From Actinomyces sp. AC-20-1 (lineage in GTDB: Bacteria; Actinomycetota; Actinomycetes; Actinomycetales; Actinomycetaceae): a stretch of DNA of 64,000 bases. The notes beneath the pieces are model-generated. The model did no database searches. It saw nothing but the letters and a program-made list of their open reading frames with translations, and had not been told where the DNA came from. Shown here in pieces: positions 56,503 through 59,881 of the stretch. The position numbers and the translations under genes were made by a program. Position 1 is the first letter of the stretch. The number at the start of each line of letters is the position of its first letter. The stretch spans positions 248,001 through 312,000 of the forward strand of contig NZ_JACJVC010000001.1 of assembly GCF_023369555.1 (NCBI RefSeq). Reading direction: 5' to 3'.

Positions 56503-56616
56503 GAGACCGTCTCCCCGGACCCGTCCGACCTCATGCTGCCGGTGGCCGAGCGGGTCCACCGCGCTGAGGGAGCCCCGGCCAAGCGGCGCCCCTCTCTCTG
56601 GGGCACCTGGGGCGTC

Positions 56617-56762
56617 AGGACAACCTGTGCTCACAAGGACAACGCTCGCGCAGCAGGACAATGCTCGCGCAGCAGGACAACCTCCGTGCGCCAGGACAAC
56701 CTCCTGGCATCCACCAGATTGTCCATCCGCGAGCAAGTTGTCCATTCACACGCAGGTGGTCC
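56617..56762. repeat. Dyad-symmetric 19-bp iteron array 1
   Basis: Five direct units starting AGGACAAC or AGGACAAT at 56617, 56636, 56655, 56674 and 56693, exactly 19 bp apart. Then, mirrored, three units ending TTGTCC or GGTCC at 56717-56724, 56736-56743 and 56755-56762, again 19 bp apart. The centre is CTCCTGGCATCCACCAG. The unit consensus is GGACAAC followed by a less conserved CTGCGYGYG-type stretch. Confidence 0.85.
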
Positions 56763-56831
56763 GCCCGCATGTTCCCTCCTCGCCGCGATCGCCCGCGACC
56801 TGACCCCAGCACTCGGACAAGGATGGCTGAG

Positions 56832-57059
56832 ATGAGCACGTACACCGCCACCGTCACCCGCGAGGGCAGCGCCTGGCTCGCCCAGTGCGTCCAGGAGCCC
56901 ACCGCCCACACCTGGGCCCCGACCCTCGCTGCGCTGCGTCGCGAGATCGTCGACGCGGTCATCCTGGCCGCCGACCTGCCCGATGACGCCGACGTCACCG
57001 TCCGCCTTGTCGCGGGCGAGGGCCTCAGCCAGGACCTGGCTGAGGTCCTCGCTGAGTGA
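56832..57059 (+). CDS. HicB-like small protein
   Basis: 75 residues from ATG 56832; ATG 56823 is an alternative. STYTATVTREGSAWLAQCVQ and LAALRREIVDAVILAADLPD follow the HicB/DUF1902 partial RNase-H-like fold of toxin-antitoxin antitoxins (strand, strand, helix, strand). No HicA-like toxin is adjacent. It starts a cluster of three HTH modules just downstream of iteron array 1. Confidence 0.7.
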   Translation: MSTYTATVTREGSAWLAQCVQEPTAHTWAPTLAALRREIVDAVILAADLPDDADVTVRLVAGEGLSQDLAEVLAE

Positions 57060-57237
57060 CCGACGCACCGAGCTGCGCGACGCCCAGGCTGCTCTACAGG
57101 CCGACGCCCTCGCGTCCATCCACAGCCTCATCGACGCCAGCTAGTCCGTGCGCGACCAGGTCGAGAAAGCCATCTGCCTCACCCTGCCCGACTGGATACC
57201 CTCGTCCCAGGGCGACGCCAGGCAGGCGACGCCATGA
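57052..57237 (+). pseudogene. Short ORF split by an in-frame amber codon, coupled to the HTH gene
   Basis: The frame starting at 57052 reads LSDRRTELRDAQAALQADAL and ASIHSLIDAS, meets TAG at 57142-57144, then continues VRDQVEKAICLTLPDWIPSS to a TGA that overlaps the next ATG by 4 nt (ATGA, 57234-57237). The end (LPDW-PSSQGDARQ) has a related copy before the second HTH gene (THWLSSVQGHAGQ). No start codon is clear. A remnant or a gene read with a stop; function unknown. Confidence 0.45.
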
Positions 57238-57692
57238 GCGGGCAGGGGGTACCGAGGGTGTACAGCGGCGAGATCAAGATGGTCCGGGAGGCCCTGAGCC
57301 TGACCACCCTGGCGATGTCCCAGCTGCTCGGTGTGTCCGAGGGCACCATCAAGAACTGGGAGAAGGGGAAGTACCAGCCACCGCCTGGGGTGGAGCGTGA
57401 GATCGCCGGCCTGGAGGCGTGGACCCGGAGGTGCGTCGACGCCGTCGTCGCCGCCGCCCAGGACGCGGACGGGCAGCCGATGGTCGTCGTGTGGCGCCTG
57501 ACCAACGACATGCCCCCCGGACCGGCGCGCACCCTAGGCGCGGGCTGGTGGCGCTCTGTCGCGGCCCGGGCGCGCGAGCGTGTCCCCGGCCTCGTCGTCG
57601 CCTACCCCGACGAGCTCGACAAGATCACCGGCAGCCGGGATATGACCCTCTCGCGAGCGGTCAGCCCGGACGTCCTGCCATTACCTCGGTAG
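57234..57692 (+). CDS. HTH protein, module 1
   Basis: 152 residues, ATG 57234 overlapping the previous stop. HTH at about 20-45 (LAMSQLLGVSEGTIKNWEKG, XRE-like). The C-terminal domain has PMVVVWRLTNDMPPGPARTL, GAGWWRSVAARARERVPG and YPDELDKITGSRDMTLSRAV, shared with the next HTH gene. The overall plan is like Aca2/YdiL-type DUF1870 regulators (HTH then a partner domain), tentatively. The usual role would be autorepression of a small operon. Confidence 0.75.
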   Translation: MSGQGVPRVYSGEIKMVREALSLTTLAMSQLLGVSEGTIKNWEKGKYQPPPGVEREIAGLEAWTRRCVDAVVAAAQDADGQPMVVVWRLTNDMPPGPARTLGAGWWRSVAARARERVPGLVVAYPDELDKITGSRDMTLSRAVSPDVLPLPR

Positions 57693-58045
57693 GGCGACCC
57701 ACCAGAAGAAACCCACCCCAGCAATACACGCAGCCAAGATCGGGTTTATTCCTAGGAGGAGATGCGGAGCGCCCGACGCAAAGGCAGGGAGAACAAATTC
57801 CCCGAATTAACCAGGACAAAACCCAATATCATCCCTGCGCCACACGCAGCGAACCCACCTCTGACGATGTCCTTGCCACGACCAGCGAAGGCACCTCCAA
57901 CCTGCGCCAGGTCGACGAGGCCGCTGACTTCTTGTCAAAGATGATCACCCTCTACGACCGCATGCGCCACTCAGCAGAATGAGCCCTCACCCCTCACCCA
58001 CTGGCTATCCTCGGTCCAGGGACACGCCGGACAGGAGGCACCCTC
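57693..58045 (+). other. Degenerate coding remnants between HTH modules 1 and 2
   Basis: An ATG at 57762 with a perfect AGGAGGAG starts a 60-residue frame, while natural-looking residues (VDEAADFLSKMITLYDRMRH) end in another frame at 57982. A third frame gives THWLSSVQGHAGQEAPS and stops at 58049, matching the C-terminus of the short ORF in module 1. The stretch looks like a decayed small gene rather than a working one. Confidence 0.4.
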
Positions 58046-58067
58046 ATGACCGAGGAGACCTGGGGAC

Positions 58068-58508
58068 ATGCGCAGCGGAGAGTTCAAAACCCATCGTGAG
58101 CGCATGGGGCTCACCATCTCGACGATGGCTGCGCTCCTGAGCGTGTCCGACACGACGATCAAGGCCTGGGACAAGGGCCGCCACCGCGTCCTGCCCGGAG
58201 CCGCGCAGGAGGTCGACCTCCTGCGCGCCTACACGCACAGGTGCGTGGACGCCGTCGTTGGGTCCGCAGCCCATACTGACGCCCCGATGATCCTGGTGTG
58301 GCATCTGACCGATGACATGCCGCCCGGCCCGGCGCGTACCCTCGGCGCCGGCTGGTGGCGAGCCGTCGCAGCCGCTGCCCAGGAGCGCACCCCCGGTATC
58401 ACCATCGGCTACGCGTCCGAGCTCGACAAGATCACCAGTAGCAGGGACCAGACGCTGAGCGAGGCGATCACCCCCTCTATCCTGCCGCCGCCCAGATTCA
58501 CCGCATAA
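58068..58508 (+). CDS. HTH protein, module 2 (probable frameshifted start)
   Basis: 146 residues from ATG 58068. HTH LTISTMAALLSVSDTTIKAW, then the shared C-terminal domain MILVWHLTDDMPPGPARTLG, GAGWWRAVAAAAQERTPG and LDKITSSRDQTL. The better ribosome-binding site (AGGAGG) serves ATG 58046, which overlaps the preceding stop as in module 1, but that frame ends after 17 codons. Removing one G of the GGGG at 58062-58065 would join them (MTEETWDMRSGEFK), matching the module 1 N-terminus. So the original start was probably 58046. Confidence 0.7.
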   Translation: MRSGEFKTHRERMGLTISTMAALLSVSDTTIKAWDKGRHRVLPGAAQEVDLLRAYTHRCVDAVVGSAAHTDAPMILVWHLTDDMPPGPARTLGAGWWRAVAAAAQERTPGITIGYASELDKITSSRDQTLSEAITPSILPPPRFTA

Positions 58509-58837
58509 ACGATCATGTGATTAGGCGCAGCGGCGGCAGGCGGCCACCACAGATGTCATGCTCTCTGCCGTCTTGTGATACCGAGCTTCTCGTACCTGTT
58601 GTTCCATCAACAGTCATTGAGACTGCCTGGGGCCAGTACAGGAGCGATGTCGGCGGGCAAGTAGGAGGAGGCACGCCCCGGTAGAAGCATGTGTGAAAAC
58701 CCCCTTTTACCATGACCTCGCGCCCACGCTCCTGTGTCCCCACCGCGATCACTGATACACCCCTTCGTCAATCCCCCATCATCGACATCCTTTTGAACGA
58801 GCACATCTATCGGTGAGCACCAACAGCGCATCCGATC
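58509..58837. other. Intergenic stretch without a recognised gene
   Basis: About 330 bp of mixed composition between HTH modules 2 and 3. No frame gives a recognisable product, and no strong hairpin or operator is visible. Confidence 0.5.
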
Positions 58838-59041
58838 ATGGATCAGCGGGATGCGAACCTCCACTTACCAGACGGTCCGATACGCCGTATCCATCACCGG
58901 GTCGAGCGGTCCATCGCCCCCATCTCGACCTGCAACTCGCAGGTTACGGCGCGTAAAGCCCGCGACATGCACCACCAGGTGCGCCGTATCATCAGGGCAT
59001 CAGGGGTGGGACACCGGCAATCTCGACAAGAGGAGAACTGA
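58838..59041 (+). pseudogene. HicB-like remnant coupled to HTH module 3
   Basis: The 67-codon frame ends TGATG, sharing one base with the next ATG. Its second half (VTARKARDMHHQVRRIIRAS) resembles the helix of HicB-like proteins. The matching first half (STYQTVRYAVSIT) lies in the other frame starting at 58851. One indel near 58895-58905 would explain this. Weak evidence. Confidence 0.35.
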
Positions 59042-59826
59042 TGCCACGAGTCAACCGTGACTCGCGTACACCCGCGCACTTCCGAGCACTGCGTACCGCG
59101 CTCGGCATTGAGCGCCGCGATCTCGCAGACCTTCTCGACGCCCACATCCACTCCGTGCGCGCCTGGGATTACCACGCCACCGCCCCCGACGATGCGTGGG
59201 CCGTCCTGGACACACAGGCCCGCAGGCTCCAGGACTACGTGGACACGACCCTCAACGACGCCGACCGCGAGTCCGGCCCCGTCACCCTGACCGCCTACGT
59301 CAACGACACTGCCGCCCAGGAAGCCGGAATGACCGTGCCTGCAGCCTGGCACCTGGCCGCCGTCGGGCATGCCGTCATCGCTTTGAAGGCCAAGGACCGT
59401 GAAGTGAGGATCCTCTACATCCCCCAGCAGGACCGACCCCCCACGCGCATAGAAACCCGGACGGCACGGAGCCCGTCCCTGAGCAGCTGGGCGGCACCCA
59501 GCGTCTCCTGGCCGTCTTCACGCGCCGTACCGGGCGACCGGACCAGGCGACCTCAGGACAATCTGTGTATGCAAGGACCACTCCCACGTGCCAGGACAAC
59601 TCCTGCGCGTATGGACAACCTCCTGGCATCCACCAGGTTGCCCATACGCACGCAGGTGATCCATCCTCGCGCAAGTGGTCCGCCCACACGCGAGTTGTCC
59701 ACCGACACGCAAGTGATCCACCCGAGGTGGCAGCGATGTGGCAACGGACGACGCCGCGCGACAACCGGGAACCGACTTCTCGTTGGGTCACCGGGGAAAG
59801 GGAATGGGGTGGCTGACGGGGCTTGA
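59041..59826 (+). CDS. HTH protein, module 3 (Aca2/YdiL-like), 3' end disrupted
   Basis: ATG 59041 follows GAGGAG. The first 145 codons look like a YdiL/Aca2-type regulator: HFRALRTALGIERRDLADLL, HIHSVRAWDYHATAPDDAW, then VPAAWHLAAVGHAVIALKAK and DREVRILYIPQQDRPP. At a run of six Cs (59432-59437) the natural continuation (RNPDGTEPVPEQLGGTQRLL) moves into another frame. The frame as given reads on through iteron array 2 and into the tRNA-His gene, so its last 90 or so codons are not real protein. Confidence 0.6.
   Translation: MPRVNRDSRTPAHFRALRTALGIERRDLADLLDAHIHSVRAWDYHATAPDDAWAVLDTQARRLQDYVDTTLNDADRESGPVTLTAYVNDTAAQEAGMTVPAAWHLAAVGHAVIALKAKDREVRILYIPQQDRPPTRIETRTARSPSLSSWAAPSVSWPSSRAVPGDRTRRPQDNLCMQGPLPRARTTPARMDNLLASTRLPIRTQVIHPRASGPPTRELSTDTQVIHPRWQRCGNGRRRATTGNRLLVGSPGKGNGVADGA
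59555..59719. repeat. Dyad-symmetric 19-bp iteron array 2
   Basis: Four direct units at 59555, 59574, 59593 and 59612 (AGGACAAT, AGGACCAC, AGGACAAC, TGGACAAC), then five mirrored units ending 59643, 59662, 59681, 59700 and 59719, all 19 bp apart. The central core matches array 1 (CCTCCTGGCATCCACCAG), with the same 24-bp offset between the innermost units. Confidence 0.85.
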
Positions 59827-59881
59827 ACCCGCGACCTCCTGGACCACAACCAAGCGCTCTGCCAACTGAGCTACAGCCACC
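59805..59881 (-). tRNA. tRNA-His (GTG)
   Basis: 77 nt including encoded CCA and the extra 5' G (G-1 paired with C73). Acceptor GTGGCTG/CAGCCAC, anticodon stem CTTGG/CCAGG around TTGTGGT, anticodon GTG. The 3' end lies 86 bp from iteron array 2. Confidence 0.95.

Follow-up and report, generated by a model that had tools for sequence, protein, structure and literature searches.

The described systems closest to the one considered here include the repetitive extragenic palindromic (REP) sequences with their REP-associated tyrosine transposases (RAYTs), and the AbiE type IV toxin-antitoxin systems. According to the parts of two papers that treat them (PMC3733652, PMC3116915), REP sequences are short, mostly intergenic repeats dispersed in a genome, and copies of them lie on either side of a dedicated gene. 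A genome can contain several types of repeat, each next to the gene that belongs to it, and some families have no dedicated gene. One AbiEi protein binds inverted repeats in its promoter (PMC3985639). Here we look at two mirror-symmetric arrays of 19-bp repeats, which we call dyad arrays, in a window of 64,000 nucleotides from Actinomyces sp. AC-20-1 (NCBI RefSeq assembly GCF_023369555.1, contig NZ_JACJVC010000001.1, positions 248,001 to 312,000 of the forward strand). With a probability of roughly 0.6, these arrays are solo copies of a REP/RAYT-like repeat family spreading in Actinomyces genomes, whose gene-bearing form is array-gene-array. The best candidate for spreading them is a nuclease-like gene located between two such arrays on another contig (C45) of the same genome. 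Most of the family genes compared are bracketed by arrays, those of one genome have distinct elements, two of the cores are dispersed in genomes whose gene carries them, arrays turn over by presence and absence between close species, and different core families share slots.

Dyad arrays in the window and in other genomes

Array 1 (56617..56763) comprises five forward and three reverse 19-bp units with the core AGGACAAC/GTTGTCC(T/A), and array 2 (59555..59720) four forward and five reverse units, with 79% identity to array 1 over 97 bp. Neither array is assigned a strand. In both, forward AGGACAAC-type units invert into their reverse complement at a 17-bp centre, CTCCTGGCATCCACCAG, which is identical in the two (56701..56717 and 59620..59636), and all steps are 19 bp. 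The arrays are 2.8 kb apart, their boundaries being approximate. This bears out the preliminary description of mirrored arrays of 8 and 9 units at an exact 19-bp period and 2.8 kb apart, whose centre it had put at 17 to 18 bp. The pattern GGACAA-N13-GGACAA, with at most one mismatch, occurs 10 times in the window versus 0.12 expected, and none of 100 shuffles reached 10. A clustered regularly interspaced short palindromic repeat (CRISPR) array was rejected because the units reverse their orientation at the array centre, no search for cas genes having been made.

In the genome to which the window belongs (G000; 2.70 Mb, 47 contigs), the two-unit pattern gives 131 matches versus 5 for the reversed control, and the full GGACAAC dyad gives 28 matches on the plus strand and 28 on the minus strand. 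In the fetched stretches, rather than in complete genomes, we catalogued 29 arrays in G000, 10 in Actinomyces bovis (G002) and 8 in a close relative of G000 (G027). The preliminary description had linked the arrays specifically to helix-turn-helix (HTH) genes; the search for GGACAAC dyads that it had proposed found them dispersed genome-wide, and also in A. bovis and G027, which speaks against that link. Among 49 genomes of the genus, the GGACAAC core is present only in these three. The 213 family-level genomes add one match with two mismatches, in G078, and the reversed control likewise gives one. When 84,980 species genomes were scanned for exact matches, the window's genome and its near kin being possibly excluded, 12 stretches were returned, all from Actinomyces bovis NCTC11535. 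Viral contigs contained no exact match to the GGACAAC dyad pattern, and no relative was confirmed when they were scanned with the family alignment, so that a phage origin was rejected. Plasmid iterons or a replication origin would call for an adjacent replication-initiator gene; the neighbours of the arrays are what we take to be ordinary chromosomal genes, no search aimed at initiators having been made. Among 25 array-bearing intergenic gaps, 14 are tandem, 8 convergent and 3 divergent, the corresponding numbers for 191 array-free gaps being 118, 32 and 41.

Four array pairs were found in G000: that of the window and those of contigs C2, C43 and C45. The C2 pair brackets a PIN toxin and a FitA-like antitoxin, the C43 pair an MntA-like nucleotidyltransferase (a match under that model's cut-off), and the C45 pair a 276-aa protein. 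An all-against-all comparison of open reading frames (ORFs) flanking the arrays yielded mostly repeated transporter-like clusters and a DUF6318 operon; it also yielded the 276-aa protein, which was the entry point to the nuclease-like family.

Several observations were made along the way on pairs and neighbours. The two arrays of the C2 pair (67786-68933, L041), like the two of the C43 pair (118083-119132, L039), share 215-253 bp as direct repeats, flank included, and a 69-bp piece of the C2 flank is present a third time. Another pair, 0.5 kb apart in A. bovis (L104:6470-7126), encloses only a predicted 47-aa ORF. Arrays at L100 and L101 (A. bovis) and at L093 (G027) directly adjoin operons that encode a DUF6318 protein together with one matching PKD weakly. 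Putative purA in L112 and L115 (G026, G011) has a roughly 33-bp tandem repeat right beside it (CTGGGCTGATCTCGCTACACCGCCTGCGGCGTC in G011); the label purA for the gene beside these tandem repeats and arrays is our assumption, as are the other names of neighbouring genes.

The conservation of the units was measured on 186 units of G000. These were picked within one mismatch of TTGTCC, so the conservation of the core, in which GTTGTCC is almost fixed save for one T/G position, is partly due to how the units were chosen. At the other 12 positions, no base exceeds 0.67. In G000, spacer identity is 0.403 for mirrored units (77 pairs), 0.409 for units of the same array (443) and 0.381 for units of different arrays (3000 random pairs). 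As mirrored spacers are no more alike than the others, the arms do not covary as those of a hairpin would, and the sites look like double-stranded iterons. The structured-RNA family considered in the preliminary description was therefore left without support in G000. The corresponding values are 0.40 (15), 0.36 (49) and 0.326 in G027, and 0.55 (22), 0.438 (64) and 0.48 in A. bovis, where mirrored spacers are somewhat more alike (0.55 versus 0.44) and arm-to-arm pairing may be possible. By eye, some other repeat families are near-perfect palindromes, for which a hairpin may likewise be possible.

At one slot common to G000 and G027 (L057/L096), the cores are retained and the spacers differ. Beside an array that is also in G000, G027 carries an insert of about 3 kb (L096:3293-6316) with a 20-bp GGACCA array, a nuclease gene of the family and a further gene, which we presume to be ion-channel-like. 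Within the units of G000, GGACCAC-type cores are commoner in third or further position from the centre than in the first two; GGACCAC is also the core of a separate family with its own gene in G011.

A nuclease-like gene family between dyad arrays

The C45 array pair (contig C45, 104708-106078) encloses one predicted gene, the product of which has an AbiEi-like N-terminal part and a DUF559/MTES_1575-like PD-(D/E)XK C-terminal part. The gene family is found in 47 of the 49 genus genomes at an E-value of 1e-20, and in 28 of 40 genomes from other genera of the same taxonomic family. Residues E198, E202, D235, E246-F-D-G (E246, D248) and K252 are invariant in 19 aligned members; we take these acidic residues and the lysine to be a PD-(D/E)XK active site, whose activity is predicted only. 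The commonest PADLOC AbiEi model matches 16 of the 19 members, and Pfam matches are fewer (MTES_1575 in 4/19, DUF559 and AbiEi_4 in 2/19 each, AbiEi_1 in 1/19). NCBIfam gave nothing convincing for the ten members scanned. A search by sequence for relatives of solved structure gave three matches, all weak (E 0.15 to 0.74); one was to an "endonuclease-like protein" in the C-terminal part. None of the 19 homologs matched Y1_Tnp, no RAYT search having been made elsewhere in the genome.

Homologs of the C45 gene lie between dyad arrays of their own, with the cores GGACCAC in G011, TCGACCG in G026, CTTACTA in G013 and CGCTACC in G044; further brackets are made of GGACAAC at a 20-bp period in G007 and of ATCTCGT-type units in G027. 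Moreover, two TCGAGGG arrays detected in a blind scan of G000 stretches bracket a family member, as predicted. Inspection by eye also shows that the DNA separating the upstream element from the start codon of many family genes (e.g. L159, L164, L166, L171, L185) contains a stretch around GGGCTCCACAGG...GTCCACAGG that is conserved.

For the bracket test, 800 nt upstream of each gene were compared with 600 nt downstream. The sample (n=79) comprised 20 genes from homolog searches and 59 of 60 hand-picked among the matches listed; L198, the one of 80 excluded, has no downstream flank. No fixed rule governed the omission of six further homologs (L169, L172, L173, L177, L180, L181): two of them are fragments of a single broken gene, L173 has no start, and L180 does show arrays. 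A flank-to-flank match of at least 40 bits was obtained for 69 of the 79 genes and of at least 60 bits for 60, with a median of 92.5. The controls, neither of which was matched for intergenic flank length, gave 2/30 and 0/30 for one housekeeping gene in 30 genomes, and 18/105 and 1/105 for 105 other genes of G000 (Fisher at 60 bits: 3e-14 and 3e-30, respectively).

The elements differ from gene to gene. Of the 59 pairs that the 69 bracketed genes form within a genome, none shares an element, and all nine non-orthologous pairs with matching elements have at least 53% protein identity. Over non-orthologous pairs, protein identity and element match are correlated (0.238, reached in 0 of 2000 permutations), which fits recognition of the element by the protein and common descent of the whole unit alike and does not separate them.

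A second core is dispersed in the same manner as GGACAAC. ATCTCGT dyads number 47 on the plus and 48 on the minus strand in G027, where gene L170 has that core, 6 and 5 in G004, 5 and 5 in G003, and none in the other 46 genomes; the reversed control had no match. In the fetched DNA, which amounts to 4 to 70 kb for most other genomes, 7 of the 69 elements have further copies in the genome of their gene: L159 (28 copies), L170 (15), L185 (5), L163 (3), L174 (2), L166 (1) and L184 (1), the counts for L159 and L170 being favoured by how the stretches were chosen.

Array sites in close species and the explanations weighed

G027 is close to G000, with 97% identity over a 427-aa housekeeping protein. 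Nineteen queries were used for the comparison of array sites; two had no close ortholog, and 17 sites were compared. The site first tried, beside putative purA, was dropped, as the neighbouring gene differs in G027. Both flanks align in G027 at 15 of the 17 sites, and nine of these 15 are short gaps of 9-155 bp. At the window, the whole array-cargo-array segment (56503..59803, no strand assigned) measures 3301 bp in G000 and 51 bp in G027. The C45 pair likewise corresponds to 39 versus 1600 bp and the C2 pair to 155 versus 1309 bp, while six single-array sites measure 9 to 116 bp in G027 versus 180 to 333 bp in G000. Just beyond array 2, at the right-hand boundary of the segment that G027 lacks, is the tRNA-His gene (59805..59880, minus strand). 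G007, which is more distant, likewise has short C2 and C45 sites (about 170 and 140 bp); for the window, a single flank was aligned there.

Four of the 15 slots carry a dyad array with another core in G027, one of these four being also among the nine short gaps. The cores are GGACCAC (L053), ATCTCGT in two arrays (L054) and TCGAG-type (L059, two slots); the last were recognised by eye, and one of the L059 slots is the 116-bp gap. The remaining three slots (L042, L045, L051) hold 1.3 to 5.8 kb of other DNA in G027. It is as if core families replaced one another or shared an insertion preference at these slots. Slots with different core families in the two close species can be seen at G027 L150:6317-6815, L151:3936-5074, L154:4582-5263 and L155:6872-6989.

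On the reading we favour, that of a selfish, REP/RAYT-like family with an array-gene-array form, the AbiEi-like N-terminal part of the protein would bind along the array, at the 7-bp core; the nuclease part would cut at or near the array or its target and so initiate copying, and repair or re-insertion would leave behind one more copy of the array. The window's HTH genes would be cargo caught between two arrays; the window's arrays with this cargo would be either a product of the system as a whole or cargo caught between two solo copies. The stronger proposal, a new class of mobile DNA in which the fused AbiEi-like/PD-(D/E)XK protein of a one-gene element recognises mirrored iteron arrays and propagates them in trans, so that Actinomycetaceae genomes fill with gene-less, fast-diverging array families competing for the same intergenic slots, we hold at slightly worse than even odds. 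The preliminary description had thought of ends of an uncharacterised element. A dispersed family with an array-gene-array copy and a segment absent in G027 agree with this idea, apart from the tie to the HTH genes, which did not hold.

Several results weigh against the favoured reading. Three of the four array pairs in G000 enclose genes other than the nuclease-like gene, and the other blind dyad-like hits in G000 (L039, L045, L053, L054) have no family gene in the stretch. Ten of the 79 family genes have no clear bracket; outside the genus, 11 of 30 loci reach 40 bits and 9 reach 60. Elements are unmatched in 16 of 17 non-orthologous pairs at 60-75% protein identity, meaning that elements change fast, and at orthologous sites none of 46 pairs below 75% identity match in their element. 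G003 and G004 have ATCTCGT arrays, and none of the 10 array regions fetched from them includes a family gene. A. bovis has about 15 GGACAAC arrays with well-kept cores, and its only family gene, among the matches listed, is bracketed by a different palindrome. Finally, no target-site duplication was seen by eye in nine junction comparisons, in which the intergenic flanks diverge.

The alternative that survives best, which we nonetheless find unlikely, is that the arrays are multi-site operators: the AbiEi-like protein would repress its own gene and dispersed ones, the nuclease part serving otherwise, e.g. in defence. The AbiEi-like N-terminal part and the conservation of cores but not spacers would suit such a role, and published AbiEi repressors are reported to bind inverted repeats (PMC3985639; the M. 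tuberculosis case, PMC7319586). However, matching elements lie downstream of the gene too, and 8 of the 25 array gaps are convergent, without a promoter side, and 3 divergent, as against 32 and 41 of the 191 others. Operators of this kind would also have to be missing at orthologous sites of a close relative and to remain in genomes that yielded no matching gene.

Less probable still is a service to the host, in chromosome organisation, insulation or termination, with nuclease genes merely settling at the arrays. Conserved cores in A. bovis, where no matching gene was found, would be expected of such a function, as would the GGACAAC array retained by G000 and G027 alike at one slot; yet the core is present in only 3 of 49 genus genomes and cores vary between species. 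In addition, elements differ among the genes within a genome, a result that genes landing by chance in a shared array would not yield. We give little weight to the arrays being ordinary miniature inverted-repeat transposable elements (MITEs) of a DDE or HUH transposase located elsewhere, with the nuclease hitchhiking (the transposases of the genome were not surveyed): their size and dispersal are like those of MITEs or REPs, but the nine junctions examined by eye had no target duplication, and a two-sided bracket with differing elements recurs around one protein family in many species.

Genes between the window arrays and comparison with known systems

Between the window arrays lie a 75-aa ORF (56832..57059, plus strand) that matches no family and three HTH-type ORFs, all on the plus strand. 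HTH ORF 1 (57234..57692) matches HTH_3 (4e-05) and is the only one of the three to pass a Pfam cut-off; HTH ORF 2 (58068..58508) is its paralog (58%), with HTH matches under curated cut-offs. The frame of HTH-like ORF 3 (59041..59826) continues open through array 2; its first 150 aa have no Pfam match, and its initial portion aligns over 135 aa, at 42% identity, with the product of a gene adjoining the HTH genes in G033. The statement in the preliminary description that the arrays bracket three HTH modules thus holds for the position of three HTH-type ORFs, while Pfam supports the first only.

Close homologs of HTH ORF 1 are found in G033 (76% identity), G029 (62%) and G013 (54-59%, in part), genomes in which the GGACAAC dyad has no match. 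Conversely, the array-bearing G002 and G027 have no HTH ORF 1 homolog at an E-value of 1e-3. The window's HTH module is met again in G033, beside tRNA-Lys (L274:6479-8500), starting about 170 bp from it, and the closest dyad-like hit of a de novo scan is more than 2 kb off. The reading frames downstream look phage-like to us, which, together with the tRNA-Lys, suggests that the module travels with integrating elements. That the three HTH proteins act on the two arrays of the window, which would make these their operators, is scarcely credible and was rejected on the co-occurrence of arrays and HTH genes across genomes: physical proximity is the sole point in its favour, against 29 arrays catalogued in stretches of the genome, close HTH ORF 1 homologs in genomes without these arrays such as G033, where the module adjoins a tRNA gene more than 2 kb from the nearest dyad-like hit, and arrays in genomes with no such homolog.

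The preliminary description knew of no family with such an arrangement, and in accordance with this, the open-access papers searched yielded no earlier description of such nuclease genes with flanking arrays. The present analysis provides a candidate function for a large protein family, nearly without annotation, in Actinomyces and its relatives; beside REP/RAYT there would then be another system of dedicated gene and dispersed repeat, with an unrelated protein. If the nuclease does propagate the arrays, this would be a new way for DNA to move, in which the short cores differ from one paralog to the next. If it does not, why matching mirrored repeats bracket nuclease genes becomes a sharply posed and testable question.

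Compared with known systems, the likeness to REP/RAYT lies in a family gene that has its own repeat both upstream and downstream, and in the dispersal of that repeat in the genome, as observed for two cores. In contrast to REP/RAYT, the protein is AbiEi-like with a PD-(D/E)XK part and not an HUH tyrosine (Y1) transposase, and the repeats are 19-20 bp iterons in mirrored arrays, whose arms in G000 are without hairpin covariation. On account of the protein and of these arms, we consider the system REP/RAYT-like but not a member of that group. The window family also lacks the GTAG end tag, its cores being AGGACAAC/GTTGTCCT; another of the families, CGCTACC/GGTAGCG, does contain GTAG. With AbiE, the system shares the AbiEi-like N-terminal part and inverted repeats upstream of the gene. 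It differs in its nuclease-like C-terminal part, in having repeats on both sides and dispersed, and, as judged from the C45 unit only, in having a single predicted gene without an AbiEii partner between the arrays.

Two further comparisons draw on our general knowledge of the systems concerned. As in homing endonuclease elements, a small nuclease-like gene is tied to sites that vary between close species; here, however, there are many gene-less arrays, and the gene lies between arrays and not in an intron or intein. As with MITEs and insertion sequences, gene-less copies outnumber gene-bearing ones, but the junctions are without a target duplication visible by eye, and none of the searches made with the protein gave a match to a transposase family.

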